Shown here one piece after another: positions 2,570 through 17,617 of a DNA stretch of 24,033 nucleotides. The notes beneath the pieces were generated by a model that saw nothing but the letters and a program-made list of their open reading frames with translations, searched no databases and was not told where the DNA came from. The translations under genes and the position numbers were made by a program. Where the stretch lies: positions 1 to 24,033 of IMG/VR virus record IMGVR_UViG_3300025810_000083; one strand, given 5' to 3'. Source of the DNA: a virus. Every line of letters begins with the position of its first letter. Positions within the stretch are counted from its first letter, which is position 1.

Positions 2570-2697
2570 TGGAACGTTACATTTATGCCTATTTGGATGA
2601 GGAGGGATTGTTGCAGTGGACGGCAGATGTAACTGAAGCAGAAGAATTTTCAATAACTACTTTCTATCAAATTGAAGTAATTTATGAGGCAGTTTAA
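2569..2697 (+). CDS. Hypothetical acidic protein, 42 aa
   Basis: Very short gene starting with ATG at 2569 (overlapping TGA of the gene before) and ending 14 bases inside the replication initiator gene. It encodes an acidic peptide beginning MERYIYAYLDEEGLLQW with likely beta-strand character. Support is position and coupling only. It could also be non-coding sequence that happens to be open, but it fills the gap neatly and keeps the operon overlap pattern. Confidence 0.4.
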   Translation: MERYIYAYLDEEGLLQWTADVTEAEEFSITTFYQIEVIYEAV

Positions 2698-3325
2698 AGG
2701 GATCTGGATACCAAGGGTAATTCTTGAAAACAAGAAATTAGAGCCAATCGACAAAATATTGTGGGCTGATATCGATTCGTTTAATTGGGATAATCACACG
2801 TTCTTCAAATCGAACACATTGATTTCTGAAGACTATGGTGTTAGTGAGCGCACAATTAGCCGAAGCATCAAACGATTGCACGAGGCAAAGTTAATTAAGA
2901 TAAAGACCGATGGACGTAAGAGGACAATATGTCCAGCCAGCATAGACAATTTGTCTACCCAGCCTCGCCAATATGTCGATGCAGCCTCGCCAATATGTCT
3001 ACAGAATAATAACAATATATCTAAACAATCTAAAAAAACAAGTTATAGTGGGAAAAACCCAAATTCGTTTGAAGAGGTAGAGAAATACTTTGCAGAGATA
3101 CTACCTTCGACAGCAAACAGTGAGTTAGCCAAAGAGAGCTTGAGCTTTTACGATTACTACACGGCTAATGGTTGGGTGCAAGGCAAAGGCAAACCCTTAA
3201 AGGATTGGAAAGCTGCTGCTCGTAATTGGATACGCAACACGAAACAATGGAAAAAATCAAATCATGGATTTAAAGGAGAAAACTTTAGCGTTGAGGCCGC
3301 AAACGAATTTATTACTCAAGGGTGA
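2684..3325 (+). CDS. Replication initiator / replisome organiser, winged-helix type
   Basis: 213 aa. Residues 1-85 look like the N-terminal DNA-binding domain of phage replication initiators: KGIWIPRVILENKKLEPIDK, then a helix-turn-helix with SEDYGVSERTISRSIKRLHE and a wing ending KIKTDGRKRTIC. Residues about 86-120 are a polar, Gln/Asn/Ser-rich linker. Residues about 125-195 form a helical C-terminal domain with FYDYYTANGWVQGKGK and KDWKAAARNWIRN, a pattern common in phage replisome organisers that recruit the helicase or its loader. The linker region of the gene carries five repeats at a 22-bp period (see that feature), just as lambda gene O carries its origin. Inference: it opens the phage origin for host DnaB. 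Overlaps the gene upstream by 14 and the gene downstream by 62 bases. Confidence 0.8.
   Translation: MRQFKGIWIPRVILENKKLEPIDKILWADIDSFNWDNHTFFKSNTLISEDYGVSERTISRSIKRLHEAKLIKIKTDGRKRTICPASIDNLSTQPRQYVDAASPICLQNNNNISKQSKKTSYSGKNPNSFEEVEKYFAEILPSTANSELAKESLSFYDYYTANGWVQGKGKPLKDWKAAARNWIRNTKQWKKSNHGFKGENFSVEAANEFITQG
2925..3021 (+). repeat. Five iterons at 22-bp period: candidate phage replication origin
   Basis: The 9-mer CAATATGTC occurs at 2925-2933, 2969-2977 and 2991-2999, with one-base variants CAATTTGTC at 2947-2955 and CAATATATC at 3013-3021. Starts are exactly 22 bases apart, about two helical turns, so all five face the same side of DNA. The middle units share a longer match, CAGCCTCGCCAATATGTC, at 2960-2977 and 2982-2999. 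Unit 1 sits in the near-palindrome GGACA-ATA-TGTCC and unit 2 in TAGACA-ATT-TGTCTA. Because 22 is not a multiple of 3, the protein does not repeat, so the repeats act as DNA. An A-rich stretch follows (3022-3045), as a melting zone would. Confidence 0.75.
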
Positions 3326-3830
3326 TTTACATTTGATCAAGCCAAACGACGCATGGAATGAAGGCACCAACATACAAAAGGCTGTAAAGGTCATGCCCGA
3401 TTTATGTCGCGGTTGGATTTACTCACAGGTAGCTCAGTTGTGCAAGGATATGAACTGCACTAAAACATTAAGCACAGATGAGGAGTTGCAGTTTACTTGC
3501 CGCGCAATATTGCAAGAGCATCCAACACTCAAGTTGGAAGAACTTAAGGTGTGTTTTGACATGATACGCATGGGTAAGTTTGGTAAACTATTTGAGCGTT
3601 TAAAGTCCGCAGAGATTCTAGAATTTTTAAGACGCTACGAAGGTGAGGTTAGAGCAGAAGTGTTAGAACAGAATCACCAGAAAAGTCAGCAAGAGGAATC
3701 AGAACGCATGGCCGATAAAATTGAACCACTGACATTAAAGCAATTTATTAGCGACAAAAAAGTTAAACTTAGACCCGAAGGAATCGGCACGCGATTAGCA
3801 AAGAAAAACGGATGGGATAAAGAATTATGA
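3264..3830 (+). CDS. Conserved phage replication-region protein, possible helicase loader
   Basis: Up to 188 aa. The ATG at 3264 gives a 62-base overlap with the initiator; a start inside the first 25 codons is possible, since the conserved part begins near residue 44 (MPDLCRGWIYSQVAQLCKDM). It continues with LSTDEELQFTCRAIL, LKLEELKVCFDMIRMGKFGK, LFERLKSAEILEFLRRYEGE and a charged, Gln/Glu-rich tail. The 'EELKVCFD-x5-GKFGKLFERL-x3-ILEFL-x-Y' pattern is one I associate with small helical proteins next to initiators in Bacteroidota phages. By position it matches lambda P, which loads DnaB at the origin; that role is inference. No ATP-binding motif is present, so an AAA+ loader such as DnaC is excluded. 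Confidence 0.65.
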   Translation: MDLKEKTLALRPQTNLLLKGDLHLIKPNDAWNEGTNIQKAVKVMPDLCRGWIYSQVAQLCKDMNCTKTLSTDEELQFTCRAILQEHPTLKLEELKVCFDMIRMGKFGKLFERLKSAEILEFLRRYEGEVRAEVLEQNHQKSQQEESERMADKIEPLTLKQFISDKKVKLRPEGIGTRLAKKNGWDKEL

Positions 3831-3865
3831 TTATATTGTCATCGGTTTACTGGTTATAGCTAGAG

Positions 3866-3895
3866 AGGGGGGACTACTCGGAGCGTTCCCCCTTT
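3866..3895 (+). terminator. Possible terminator after replication block
   Basis: AGGGGG (3866-3871) pairs with CCCCCT (3888-3893) across a 16-base interval, followed by a short T-rich stretch TTCGTT. It lies in the only intergenic gap between 629 and 15744 that exceeds 20 bases. The weak T run makes full termination uncertain; it may instead attenuate. Confidence 0.45.
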
Positions 3896-3911
3896 CGTTA
3901 TATTAGATAAC

Positions 3912-4328
3912 GTGAGCGAACGAACTAGAGCAGTAGCAAATTTAGACGCAGCGTATTCTATATACGTCCGAAGACGGTATGCCGACACAACAGGCTACGT
4001 ATCATGCTGGACTTGTGGCAAGAAGAAGTTTTGGGAGAAGGACGGTATGCAAGCTGGACACTTTCAAACTAGAACGAAGTACAGCACAAGGTGGCATCTC
4101 GAAGAAATTGACGGTAAGTTAGAAACCTTGAATTGCATGCCACAATGCGCACATTGCAATATGGGTAATGGCGGTAGACAATTTGAGTTTGGCCGTAAAC
4201 TAGACGCAGTTTATGGTGAAGGCACTTGTGATCGTTTGATACAGAAAAGCAATAGTACAATGAAGTTCACAACGGTTGAGTTAAAAGAGTTAACCAGCCA
4301 CTTTAAACAACTAACTAAAGACTTGTGA
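3912..4328 (+). CDS. ninG: NinG-like zinc/HNH recombination protein
   Basis: 138 aa, starting with GTG at 3912. It follows the lambda NinG pattern: LDAAYSIYVRRRYAD, GYVSCWTCGKKKFWEKDGMQ, AGHF (49-52), STRW, then MPQCAHCNMGNGGRQFEFGR. Two CxxC pairs (Cys32/Cys35 and Cys79/Cys82) should bind a structural zinc, and His50 in GHF lies where the HNH-type nuclease core begins. NinG proteins are Holliday-junction or recombination-related nucleases (rap-like region of lambda). The gene overlaps the next by four bases (GTGA). Family assignment is good; nuclease activity is inferred. Confidence 0.8.
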   Translation: MSERTRAVANLDAAYSIYVRRRYADTTGYVSCWTCGKKKFWEKDGMQAGHFQTRTKYSTRWHLEEIDGKLETLNCMPQCAHCNMGNGGRQFEFGRKLDAVYGEGTCDRLIQKSNSTMKFTTVELKELTSHFKQLTKDL

Positions 4329-4852
4329 CCTGTATTGAAGAGTTTTTTAATGACCACTATGACGAATTAAAACAAATAGCCAATATTTGCACGGGCGAAA
4401 AGTACGGCAATGATTTGGTTAATGACGTGGCAGTCAGTATCTTAGAGAGAGAGGACGACAAATACATTAATATGTGTGAGCGAGGTGAGTTGCTCTGGTA
4501 CGTACTGCGATGGCTTAAAATATGCTCGTTTTCAAAGACTACACGGTTTTACTACAAGTACAAAAAATGGACGGAGAACGTGACGTTTGAATATCCAATG
4601 GGAGCGGTGGGTAACATGTCAGACAGCTACGCAGACATGAACCACAAGGAACAGTTGCAAGTGATCGACTCATTACTCGATGATTTAAACTGGTTCGAAG
4701 CCGAGATATTTAGAGTTTATTACATTCACAATCACAGTATAAATACGCTAACCAATGCAACAGGAATCGGAAGAAAAACAATCCAAGAAAGTCTCAAAAA
4801 AGCCAAAGACCACATCCAAAAAAACAAGGAAAAAATCCAAGGGGCTGGGTGA
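4325..4852 (+). CDS. Phage sigma-70-like transcription factor
   Basis: 175 aa, GTG start in a GTGA overlap with ninG. N-terminal helices (residues about 5-65: FFNDHYDELKQIANICTG, YGNDLVNDVAVSILERE) match the sigma region 2 core layout, where a long helix is followed by an 'L-V-x-D-V' helix. The C-terminal part (residues about 110-165) is region-4-like: IDSLLDDLNWFEAEIFRVYY, then a helix-turn-helix HSINTLTNATGIGRKTIQES and a basic helix. Between them a YKYKKW basic patch. This resembles ECF-type or phage late sigma factors. Sitting just before the packaging and virion genes, it may switch on late transcription. Key region-2 aromatic residues are not clear, so it might be a regulator that acts without core polymerase. 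Confidence 0.65.
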   Translation: MTCIEEFFNDHYDELKQIANICTGEKYGNDLVNDVAVSILEREDDKYINMCERGELLWYVLRWLKICSFSKTTRFYYKYKKWTENVTFEYPMGAVGNMSDSYADMNHKEQLQVIDSLLDDLNWFEAEIFRVYYIHNHSINTLTNATGIGRKTIQESLKKAKDHIQKNKEKIQGAG

Positions 4853-5533: not shown

Positions 5534-6406
5534 ATGAATCATGGCAGTTTATTCTCAGGGATTGGAGGCTTTGATTTAGCCGCTGAATGGGCGGGATTTA
5601 CAAACCTCTTTAATTGCGAGTGGGAAGAGTTCCCTCGCAAAGTCCTCAAACACCATTTCCCCAATGCAGAACAATTCGAAGACATCAAAGACTTTAACGC
5701 GACAGCTTACTCTGGAAGACTTGATATACTCTCAGGAGGGTTTCCCTGCCAACCGTTCAGCGTTGCAGGAAAACGAAAAGGCTCAGAAGATGAACGCCAC
5801 TTGTGGCCAGAGATGCTTAGAGTTGTCGGAGAGTGTAAGCCCCGTTGGGTCGTGGGCGAGAACGTTCGCGGGCTTGTTAATTGGTCGGACGGATTGGTTT
5901 TCGAAACGTGTTGCGCTGACTTGGAAGCTATCGGGTACTCCGTCCAATCGTTTATTATTCCTGCTTGTGCCACAGGCGCGCCCCACCGAAGGGACAGAGT
6001 TTGGATTGTTGCTCACTCCGACAACTTCGGAACCCGTTCACGACTTGGAGAAATTCAAAGCGAGGATGGAGAAATACCCGAACGGAACAACGATGCCCAA
6101 CCTTGCAACACAAGTTCACGGAATGCTCCCGACACCAGTCAAGAGCGACCATCAAAACCGATGGAAGACAGAGAACTGGGACGGGACAAGCGATTTACCG
6201 AGCGTTATAAACACTGCGCTTGGAACGGGTTCCCAACTGTCCCCCCTATTTGTGGAGGAGATGATGGGCTTCCCAAAGAACTGGACGGTATTACCTTTCC
6301 AAAATGGAGAAGAGAATCAATCAAAGGATACGGAAACGCCATAGTGCCGCAAGTGGCTTACAGGATATTTCAAAGCATACAGGATTACGAAGCCATGTTA
6401 AAATAA
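5534..6406 (+). CDS. dcm: DNA cytosine-5 methyltransferase
   Basis: 290 aa. Transfers a methyl group from S-adenosylmethionine to C5 of cytosine in a specific DNA site. Motif I is FSGIGGFD (7-14, SAM binding), motif IV is GGFPCQPFS (68-76) with catalytic Cys72, motif VI ENVRGL (109-114), motif VIII RRDRVWIVA (152-160), motif IX region GLPKELDG (245-252), motif X GYGNAIVPQVAYRIF (265-279). Residues 161-235, where the target-recognition part should be, are hydrophilic and low in hydrophobic residues, and are read in another frame as well (5664-6344). No cognate endonuclease is nearby, so it is an orphan enzyme, probably protecting phage DNA from host restriction. G+C looks higher than in the neighbours, hinting at transfer. 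Confidence 0.92.
   Translation: MNHGSLFSGIGGFDLAAEWAGFTNLFNCEWEEFPRKVLKHHFPNAEQFEDIKDFNATAYSGRLDILSGGFPCQPFSVAGKRKGSEDERHLWPEMLRVVGECKPRWVVGENVRGLVNWSDGLVFETCCADLEAIGYSVQSFIIPACATGAPHRRDRVWIVAHSDNFGTRSRLGEIQSEDGEIPERNNDAQPCNTSSRNAPDTSQERPSKPMEDRELGRDKRFTERYKHCAWNGFPTVPPICGGDDGLPKELDGITFPKWRRESIKGYGNAIVPQVAYRIFQSIQDYEAMLK
5664..6344 (+). CDS. Overprinted protein inside the methyltransferase gene, 226 aa
   Basis: Open reading frame of 226 codons wholly inside the methyltransferase gene, one base out of phase (+1). Its translation looks like a real protein, not a shadow: LEDLIYSQEGFPANRSALQE, CGQRCLELSESVSPVGSW, WKLSGTPSNRLLFLLVPQ, a repeated LLTPT / MLPTPV motif, and LSPLFVEEMMGFPKNWT near the end. 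I recall the same 'LLPTP...QL-P-F-V-E-E-M-M-G-F-P-x-x-W-T' series in other phages, also overlapping dcm genes. In the same stretch the methyltransferase frame is low in hydrophobic residues. The ATG at 5664 is the likely start, but entry by frameshift from the methyltransferase frame is possible. Function unknown; perhaps a partner or the target-recognition unit of the enzyme. Confidence 0.6.
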   Translation: MQNNSKTSKTLTRQLTLEDLIYSQEGFPANRSALQENEKAQKMNATCGQRCLELSESVSPVGSWARTFAGLLIGRTDWFSKRVALTWKLSGTPSNRLLFLLVPQARPTEGTEFGLLLTPTTSEPVHDLEKFKARMEKYPNGTTMPNLATQVHGMLPTPVKSDHQNRWKTENWDGTSDLPSVINTALGTGSQLSPLFVEEMMGFPKNWTVLPFQNGEENQSKDTETP

Positions 6407-16041: not shown

Positions 16042-16284
16042 ATGAGAAGCACACCATTAGCAGAATTGGAATACTACGACGAGGGCGCAACGATTCTAAC
16101 CGATTGGGAGGCTGAGGAATTTGTCATGGACGAATTCAGTTACGAGATGAGCAACGACATTCAAATCGTTTTTATCAGCGGAATCAGCAGCGCAATCTAC
16201 GTAGGAGAAAAAGCGTACGACGCAAACCAGCCTATGTGGGACGCGTACGAATACGCAAAGCAATATGACGACAGCAAAGTATAA
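16042..16284 (+). CDS. Array gene 2: small acidic protein, 80 aa
   Basis: Starts directly after the linker TAAACAACAGAGAT. Very acidic, net charge about -14 by count, with DWEAEEFVMDEFSYEMSND and a hydrophobic strand IQIVFISGISSAIYVG, then an aromatic helix PMWDAYEYAKQYDDS. I recognise no family. It is the least like the other members in layout (long acidic N-terminus before the strand). The charge and aromatic pattern are like a DNA-mimic protein, which is a guess. Confidence 0.65.
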   Translation: MRSTPLAELEYYDEGATILTDWEAEEFVMDEFSYEMSNDIQIVFISGISSAIYVGEKAYDANQPMWDAYEYAKQYDDSKV

Positions 16285-16295
16285 ACAACAGAGAT

Positions 16296-16565
16296 ATGGC
16301 ATTCAATTACAATCAATATATGGCAGACGTTGACGAGTTTATTAGCTTGGTTGAGTCTGAAGGTTACAGATTAGGTTATCATGACGAAAGAGATTCTATG
16401 ATTAACTTCTCACCTGATGACCCTTTGGATATGCGAGGATCATTTGAACACGAGGATATCATTGAAGAAATTGCTGACGAAGTTTTCCCTGTTAAGTGGA
16501 TTACAGAAATTAAGACAATAGGACGAGGAGAAATTATTGTTAAGTACACTGACCTTTATATCTAA
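16296..16565 (+). CDS. Array gene 3: small acidic protein, 89 aa
   Basis: Starts after an identical linker. By eye: helix DVDEFISLVESEG, strand YRLGYHDERD, strand SMINFSPDD, acidic turn, helix HEDIIEEIADEVF, strand PVKWITEIKTIGRG and strand EIIVKYTDLY. Net charge about -14. No known family recognised. The alpha-beta-beta-(loop)-alpha-beta-beta order matches genes 4, 5 and 7. Confidence 0.65.
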   Translation: MAFNYNQYMADVDEFISLVESEGYRLGYHDERDSMINFSPDDPLDMRGSFEHEDIIEEIADEVFPVKWITEIKTIGRGEIIVKYTDLYI

Positions 16566-16576
16566 ACAACAGAGAT

Positions 16577-16825
16577 ATGTACGAAGAAGTATTTGGTTTT
16601 TTACAGGAAGTTTTTCCAAGAGTCATTGAAGATGGTGACGGAACTTTTCGCGTTTCAGGCGAAGACCCTAGTGCAAAATACAATGGGCGCAGAGCCTTGG
16701 ATTATTATGCTACAAGTAGTGATTACGACTTAGGCGTTTATTTGCCGTTCTTAGACGAACTAGAAGACATGGGTTACTTTGTCGAATGGTGGGATGCAGG
16801 AACTGCGATTGTCGCACCACTTTAA
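16577..16825 (+). CDS. Array gene 4: small acidic protein, 82 aa
   Basis: Starts after an identical linker. Helix MYEEVFGFLQEVFP, strand RVIEDGDG, strand TFRVSGED, a Tyr/Ser-rich loop, helix LPFLDELEDMG, strand YFVEWWDAG and strand TAIVAPL. Net charge about -12. The motif 'helix-D-M-G-Y-x-V-E' is shared with gene 6 (FVDMGYEVENIGY). No known family recognised. Confidence 0.65.
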   Translation: MYEEVFGFLQEVFPRVIEDGDGTFRVSGEDPSAKYNGRRALDYYATSSDYDLGVYLPFLDELEDMGYFVEWWDAGTAIVAPL

Positions 16826-16836
16826 ACAACAGAGAT

Positions 16837-17064
16837 ATGAGAGAAATATTTATTAAAGCAATAGAAGCGTTTGGTGTACCGTATACAATTACGTATGACC
16901 AAGGAAATATGATTCTTGCTCAAGTTGATTTTAGCGATATTTTTTTTGGTCAAAATGATGTAGATGATTTGCAAGATTGGATGGCGCATGAAGTCGGCAT
17001 ACCAATTTATGATCTTATTCTAGAGGAAAATCGAGATGGCGTACAAGTAGGAATAGACTACTAA
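16837..17064 (+). CDS. Array gene 5: small acidic protein, 75 aa
   Basis: Start set at the ATG right after the linker (16837), not at an upstream in-frame ATG at 16786 that lies inside gene 4. Helix MREIFIKAIEAFG, strand VPYTITYDQGN, strand MILAQVDFSD, loop, helix DVDDLQDWMAHEVG, strand IPIYDLILEENRD and strand GVQVGIDY. Net charge about -12. No known family recognised, same layout as genes 3, 4 and 7. Confidence 0.65.
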   Translation: MREIFIKAIEAFGVPYTITYDQGNMILAQVDFSDIFFGQNDVDDLQDWMAHEVGIPIYDLILEENRDGVQVGIDY

Positions 17065-17075
17065 ACAACAGAGAT

Positions 17076-17357
17076 ATGATTGCTTACCGTATCTATGACA
17101 TAAAGAAAGACGAAGTGTATGATGCTATTTATGAAGGCTATCTAACAACGCCTTTGTTTGATGTGTCTAGAGGTGAAGCAAACAATTTGATGGATGGGTT
17201 AGAAATCACGCATAAGAGAAAAGGAAACTATACAGATGTCGCATTGTACGGTTCGGGATATGCTACAGTGCAAAGTAAGTTAGTAGAAGAAGAATTTTTA
17301 TTGACTATTGAGGCATTTGTAGACATGGGATACGAGGTAGAAAATATTGGATACTAA
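17076..17357 (+). CDS. Array gene 6: small acidic protein, 93 aa
   Basis: Starts after an identical linker. Opens with a strand-like MIAYRIYDIKKDEVYDAIYE, then LFDVSRGEANNLMDGLEI, a charged turn HKRKGNY, a strand DVALYGSGYATV, and helix KLVEEEFLLTIEAFVDMGYE. It is the least acidic large member (about -9) and has more Lys. The closing helix plus 'DMGYEVE' repeats the pattern of gene 4. Function unknown. Confidence 0.65.
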   Translation: MIAYRIYDIKKDEVYDAIYEGYLTTPLFDVSRGEANNLMDGLEITHKRKGNYTDVALYGSGYATVQSKLVEEEFLLTIEAFVDMGYEVENIGY

Positions 17358-17368
17358 ACAACAGAGAT

Positions 17369-17617
17369 ATGGCAGCTTGGGAAAGACATTACGGAGATTT
17401 TGAAAGCCTAATTGAAGCGCACATTTTTCGACCATCACAACTAGACTCTGGCACAGAGTTAATTGAGTTTTACGATGGCGATTCAAAAAATCCTCCACAC
17501 GCTGTTATCGAGTGTGGCGATAAACAATCAGCTATACATTGGGCAAACGTCTTAGGGGATTGGGGGGCATGGACAGAAGTACAAGGGACAGAAGTGTACG
17601 TAGAACCTTACGCATAA
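17369..17617 (+). CDS. Array gene 7: small acidic protein, 82 aa
   Basis: Last member preceded by the identical linker. Helix DFESLIEAHIF, strand ELIEFYDGDSKNP, strand HAVIECGD, helix KQSAIHWANVLGDWG, strand AWTEVQG, strand TEVYVEPY. Net charge about -11. Same order as genes 3-5. The linker series ends here: its stop is followed by AAAAAAAGAC and the ATG of the prohead protease at 17627. Confidence 0.65.
   Translation: MAAWERHYGDFESLIEAHIFRPSQLDSGTELIEFYDGDSKNPPHAVIECGDKQSAIHWANVLGDWGAWTEVQGTEVYVEPYA

Follow-up and report, generated by a model that had tools for sequence, protein, structure and literature searches.

An array of five iterons at an exact pitch of 22 bp is very probably a replication origin, situated inside the gene for its initiator, where the linker is encoded, and operating by the mechanism outlined below, as judged from sequence comparisons. 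The sequence studied was the 24,033-nt viral record IMGVR_UViG_3300025810_000083, which is termed "the window" here. A lambda-O-like origin had been proposed in the original prediction, and palindromic in-gene iterons in the linker, an A/T-rich stretch on their 3' side, and then a probable gene for a loader and a homologue of NinG support this proposal. The elements of the candidate origin are as follows.

2684 to 3325, plus strand: initiator gene, 213 amino acids, with an HTH_36 winged-helix N-terminal domain, a linker, and a helical C-terminal domain
2921 to 2935, plus strand: iteron 1, weak, AGGAC-AATAT-GTCCA, in the 22-bp register, half-sites off the TMGMC consensus
2943 to 2957, plus strand: iteron 2, TAGAC-AATTT-GTCTA, arms invariant in eight types
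2965 to 2979, plus strand: iteron 3, TCGCC-AATAT-GTCGA
2987 to 3001, plus strand: iteron 4, TCGCC-AATAT-GTCTA, arms invariant in eight types
3009 to 3023, plus strand: iteron 5, weak, in the 22-bp register, off the TMGMC consensus
3005 to 3044, no strand: A/T-rich stretch, candidate DNA-unwinding element, 85% A+T, richer in A/T than any other 40-mer in the gene

Read directly in the window, CAATATGTC starts at positions 2925, 2969, and 2991, CAATTTGTC at 2947, and CAATATATC at 3013. A repeat search returned the same family with spacings of 22, 22, and 22 bp, and both results confirmed the predicted five iterons at exact 22-bp spacing inside the initiator gene. In a period scan, five copies starting at 2925 with a period of 22 gave this gene its best 5-copy score, 43. 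This score was reached by none of 300 synonymous-codon shuffles, which preserve the protein and the codon usage (maximum 40), and by none of 300 dinucleotide shuffles (maximum 36). When 33 genes of the window were scanned similarly, the initiator gene was the only one at 0/400 for three, four, and five copies.

Alignment of eight types defined the iteron unit as an imperfect palindrome of 15 bp, TMGMC-N5-GKCKA, with a spacer of 7 bp after it. The centers are A/T-rich, with A or T at 188 of 200 bases over iterons 1 to 5 of the eight types. A fit to TMGMC was found for 46 of the 48 half-sites in iterons 2 to 4 versus 1 of 32 in iterons 1 and 5, which indicates three strong iterons (2 to 4) and two weak ones (1 and 5). 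Each iteron is an inverted repeat as in lambda-type in-gene origins, clearly so for iterons 2 to 4, and dyad symmetry was at 30/500 or better in 11 of the 13 arrays tested. In the window, exact matches to the degenerate motif are confined to iterons 2 to 4; of the 55 loci examined for it, 47 contained the motif, in each case only as a pair or triplet of sites spaced by 22 or 44 bp. The 40-mer at 3005 to 3044 ranks at the 99.9th percentile of the window's 40-mers for A+T, begins between iterons 4 and 5, and extends in the 3' direction. An A-rich stretch had been expected to follow the repeats; it is present on their 3' side but overlaps iteron 5, and this iteron may belong to the A/T-rich element.

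Comparison of synonymous codons in seven sequences (21 pairs) indicates that selection is acting on the DNA of the array. Codons for the same amino acid were identical in 441 of 492 cases (90%) inside positions 2921 to 3023 versus 1,049 of 2,026 (52%) outside, and the sliding-window maximum of codon identity fell on the array (start 2930). Column shuffling never matched this contrast (0/100000), a figure to be taken as indicative because the pairs are not independent and the region was chosen by the analyst. Alternatively, the constraint may be at the protein level and the repeats may be a by-product of a conserved linker motif, as residues of the linker, RQY and SP among them, show full conservation in type A. 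This is highly improbable, however. The five copies translate as TICP, DNLS, RQYV, PICL, and NNIS in a shifting reading frame, so that protein repetition is not the explanation of the repeats, as had been argued originally, and the constraint falls on synonymous codons. Moreover, the linker is the part least conserved between the types: in B, D, and L099, its identity to that of the window is 0.14 to 0.21, versus 0.22 to 0.40 for the C-terminal part, whereas the geometry of the array stays.

The palindromes could also be RNA hairpins in an early transcript, acting in antitermination or translational control. Each iteron could fold into a stem of 5 bp closed by a loop of 5 bases, and lambda-type operons carry RNA hairpin sites elsewhere. 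Pairing was, however, present in only 72.5% and 60% of cells for iterons 3 and 4, respectively, with no compensatory change in eight sequences; the array folded no better than shuffles (z of −0.47), and the window had no Rfam match. The variation among the TMGMC half-sites preserves the DNA half-site and disrupts RNA pairing. A role as hairpins thus has very little probability.

The initiator is, by its sequence, an HTH_36 initiator outside the Pfam lambda O and RepA_N families. It matched HTH_36 (PF13730) with 31.3 bits at a gathering cut-off of 25, and this model was matched by all 13 members of the initiator family with an E value of 0.1 or better. DnaD_N reached 17.2 bits, under its cut-off of 27, and neither the phage replication protein O model nor RepA_N was among the initiator's Pfam matches to an E value of 1. 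Alignment with lambda O by hhalign gave a probability of 0.1% and no detectable profile similarity. Among the PHROG families, the initiator matched the DnaD-like helicase loader phrog_186 (2.5e-13), several replication initiation families, and, weakly, groups named O-like (phrog_678, 1.1e-5).

An AF2 model of the initiator, of low confidence with a mean pLDDT of 50.5, displayed a winged helix at about residues 11 to 84, a pLDDT under 50 at 87 to 123, and helices after 129. Since the array spans codons 80 to 114, it is mostly linker-coding, with iteron 1 falling where the wing ends (codons 80 to 84). The HTH_36 match and this domain layout bear out the predicted location of the repeats between the DNA-binding and C-terminal domains. 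A structure search with the low-confidence model of the N-terminal domain returned initiator or Rep entries in the best four rows (Z of 8.2 to 9.1 over 85 to 88 residues), which we take to be RepA proteins of pSK41-like plasmids, with Fur close behind (Z of 8.0) and the DnaD N-terminal domain at a Z of 7.2.

Initiators with 61 to 100% identity, plus that of locus L096 with 50%, retained the word and the 22-bp pitch, so that the spacing, whose conservation in related phages had been named as a check, is kept down to 50% protein identity. Beyond this level, an array of 22 to 23 bp is at the same place but with other palindromes. Distant loci were anchored on the DUF6633-like gene, independently of the array, and the upstream initiator was scanned in 13 of them. 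A four-copy array with a pitch of 22 to 23 bp at 3/400 or better was found in 12 of these 13 anchored loci, and the remaining one, L099, gave no significant array. Eight of the 12 array-bearing loci form a closely related group, type B, with CCGTA-type palindromes. L093 contains another word, L096 and L097 that of the window; over the N-terminal part, L096, with the same word, has an identity of 0.55 to the window, and types with other words have 0.49 or less. Counted by eye, type B has six iterons in L085 and L090 and four in L086, L091, and L092, and this difference is a 15-codon block equal to two iterons in frame (23 plus 22 bp).

The iteron units of L094 read TAATC-AAAAC-GATTA, and its C-terminal part has an identity of 0.22 to that of the window. 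As a separate observation, the L094 initiator at 3343 to 4041 contains a very regular 22-bp array, with 46/48 in the four-copy score and the same downstream gene. A diverged C-terminal part combined with a fixed origin layout has the appearance of domain shuffling.

For a survey, two further initiator queries plus the eight earlier loci led to 114 loci. Seven without a complete usable open reading frame (ORF) were dropped, and the other 107 formed 55 clusters at 70% identity. An array at 1/300 or better for some copy number was rated as significant, and 120 neighboring-gene clusters, drawn randomly from 137, served as controls. Significant arrays were present in 21 of the 55 initiator clusters versus none of the 120 control clusters, and the period was 22 or 23 in 15 of the 21. 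Eight clusters had been examined before the survey, seven of them being positive; among the 47 fresh clusters, 14 were positive, eight with a period of 22 to 23. The other six fresh positives (period 18 to 25) resemble purine-rich low complexity and are not claimed. The 34 clusters with no significant array mean little, as the scan misses lambda O at this threshold: lambda O, with four known iterons, scores just 34/400 because their spacing is uneven. Among GenBank homologues, a three-copy array at 0/400 was found in four of nine non-lambda genes, three with a period of 22 to 23, and the other five were without such an array.

The case is evenly balanced for a wider reading of these data, which would be a wide clan of HTH_36 phage initiators with a self-contained origin in linker-coding DNA and an almost constant mid-gene geometry of 22 to 23 bp. 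In this clan, the palindrome would be rewritten together with the winged helix between subfamilies, the number of iterons would change in in-frame steps of two, and a part of the members would use DUF6633-like proteins as a so far undescribed loader family. If true, the clan is a natural library of co-encoded initiator/iteron pairs, and such paired types would be a way to learn the half-site choice by this winged helix.

Concerning the mechanism, winged-helix dimers of the initiator would bind the half-sites TMGMC-N5-GKCKA of three to five iterons. A pitch of 22 bp is about two helical turns, so that the bound dimers would lie along nearly one side of the helix and could assemble into the proposed O-some-like complex. 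This complex would strain and open the adjacent A/T-rich stretch at 3005 to 3044, and the C-terminal domain plus the DUF6633-like product would then bring the host DnaB helicase. Binding, unwinding, the role of the loader, and use of the host helicase are steps that we infer. Cumulative GC skew, named in the original prediction as a check, gave no support, as it climbed steadily through 3 kb with no turning point.

Binding of the initiator could instead serve transcription control, the sites being operators for autoregulation or a roadblock and the origin being located elsewhere. Operators for a winged-helix protein would also look palindromic, and sigma-70-like patterns are present at 3006 to 3049 on both strands. 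Such promoter patterns were no commoner than in shuffles, however (8 found, 11.7 expected), and the host probably uses other promoters. The exact motif has no further copy upstream of the initiator gene, and regular mid-gene arrays in many initiators but none of the 120 neighbors, with an adjoining A/T-rich stretch, fit an origin better, which makes the operator explanation unlikely. A Bacteroidota-type promoter pattern had a single match in the window, at 577 to 608, and was rejected as being not above chance (1.13 expected).

The order of the genes is initiator, DUF6633-like, NinG/Rap homologue, sigma- or Q-like regulator, C5 methyltransferase, and terminase, with small ORFs between them. 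Those following the initiator gene are as follows.

3264 to 3830, plus strand: DUF6633-like gene, 188 amino acids, whose start overlaps the initiator gene; from comparison of the gene slot, probably a helicase loader
3912 to 4328, plus strand: NinG/Rap-like nuclease gene, Pfam NinG 29.8 bits versus 25.4, phrog_5034 1e-21
4325 to 4852, plus strand: sigma- or Q-like regulator gene, weak, phrog_1740 4.6e-4, phrog_79 0.013

All 12 family members matched DUF6633, with a best E value of 7.8e-6, and the window's own protein was under the gathering score. The DUF6633-like gene is directly downstream of the initiator gene in 44 of the 107 complete loci; some of these were fetched via the DUF6633-like gene itself and at least 11 by the initiator query only. 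Elsewhere, the slot after the initiator is occupied by a DnaB helicase in a cluster of seven loci (PF03796, 2e-76 for the representative), by an IstB/DnaC-like ATPase in a cluster of two (PF01695, 2.5e-23), or by a P-like loader (phrog_109, 3.2e-6), and several other clusters in the slot had no assignment or were, for example, a primase-like protein. The shared slot, a case of guilt by position, indicates that the DUF6633-like protein is probably a helicase loader. It is possible, if somewhat doubtful, that the origin is as described but that the DUF6633-like protein is not the loader; recruitment of the helicase or primase would then fall to the initiator alone, the model put forward for pSK41 Rep. 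PHROG assigns the initiator family itself to the DnaD-like helicase loaders, as mentioned above. The DUF6633-like profile resembles neither a solved structure nor lambda P; a structure search with a model gave nothing, and there was no resemblance to PDB sequences, lambda P, or P of a Psychrobacter phage. Bacteroides/Phocaeicola phages of 71 to 72 kb contain a distant DUF6633-like match (23.5%, E of 0.02) with no annotated initiator before it. The occupancy of the slot, otherwise taken by DnaB, IstB/DnaC-like, and P-like proteins, argues nevertheless for a DUF6633-like loader.

No DnaB_C domain was found in the window record and 19 related virus records, and no IstB/DnaC domain in 11 records, the completeness of these records not being established. 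From the absence of a DnaB domain in 20 possibly incomplete records and the loader-like next gene, we infer dependence on the host helicase. In the open-access papers searched, the name DUF6633 was not found. The DUF6633-like family accompanies these initiators as a conserved partner; it has no described function and is a candidate for a family of helicase loaders, so that the gene next to the initiator points to a possible new family of loaders. In a 10-locus cluster, a DnaA C-terminal DNA-binding domain (PF08299, 1.6e-9) occupies the post-initiator slot (L182, 1132 to 1701), pairing a phage initiator with a DnaA-like binder.

Further downstream, a 226-amino-acid ORF (5664 to 6344, plus strand) is nested in another frame of the C5 methyltransferase gene (5534 to 6406). 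It matched phrog_1008 (3.6e-21) and had 196 relatives in viral contigs and no Pfam match. In 19 relatives, the methyltransferase frame has no stop, the nested frame is open in 16 and has a single stop in 3, and the third frame has 7 to 25 stops; both proteins are 47 to 81% identical among relatives. This looks like an overprinted gene pair. A row of small ORFs with 80 to 93 amino acids and similar size and acidity extends from 16042 to 17617 (plus strand), with starts at 16042, 16296, 16577, 16786, 17076, and 17369; the single one scanned, 16577 to 16825, had no PHROG match.

The host of the phage is probably a member of the Bacteroidota, as the prediction had also stated, and the evidence is indirect. 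Among the 15 terminase matches listed (of 1,232 records), 14 were Phocaeicola phages and one an unlabelled fecal record, with 36 to 37% identity, and the capsid matched only the Nonlabens phages P12024S and P12024L (21% identity, four records). Phocaeicola and Nonlabens belong to the Bacteroidota. Profile searches of bacterial genome contigs with the initiator and the DUF6633-like protein confirmed no relative, so that no prophage names a host. The whole genomes of two cultured Bacteroidota phages had no gene annotated as such an initiator, as judged by annotation only, and the open-access literature, searched by title and start of the abstract, yielded no in-gene origin in a Bacteroidota phage. 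If the interpretation as an origin is right, the origins of many uncultured phages may be readable from sequence alone by a combined test of synonymous constraint and period.

Lambda contains four 18-bp inverted-repeat iterons inside O, bound by O dimers and beside a region of high A/T content (PMC6022878, PMC3985674). In Stx phages, as described in PMC7466680, six iterons come with 13 more residues in O, two iterons being gained in frame, and the type B relatives likewise differ by two in-frame iterons. As in lambda, the array consists of inverted-repeat iterons in the initiator gene between the domains, occupying a similar relative position in the gene and with an A/T-rich region next to it; a loader gene follows (P in lambda, a probable one here), with NinG and Q (here the weakly matched sigma- or Q-like regulator) further on. 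The pitch is exactly 22 bp here but uneven in lambda, with iteron starts 20, 24, and 23 bp apart (mean 22.3), and the next gene is DUF6633-like with no resemblance to lambda P.

RepA_N initiators such as that of pSK41 are similar in having the binding sites in the linker-coding center and a winged-helix N-terminal domain, and the entries presumed to represent them top the structure search with the N-terminal model. In the sections of PMC5703833 drawn on here, pSK41 has four Rep boxes in the middle of rep, in DNA coding for a dispensable linker, and its Rep DnaD-like N- and C-terminal domains, the former with a winged helix; in pPR9, an HTH_36 N-terminal domain with homology to a phage protein differs together with the origin region from pSK41. 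Unlike the phage described here, both are Firmicutes plasmids, and these sections describe no adjacent loader gene (PMC5703833). SPP1, compared by its published description, is similar in that oriL, with direct repeats and an A/T-rich unwinding element, is within the initiator gene 38 (replisome organizer G38P), with gp39 as loader; it differs in encoding its own DnaB-type helicase and in having a second origin, oriR (PMC6316719). Since in-gene origins are known in lambda, SPP1, and pSK41, the kind is known, and the array adds a new and well-supported case, with a pattern that extends across the family. We read it as an origin that would work like those of lambda, SPP1, and pSK41.
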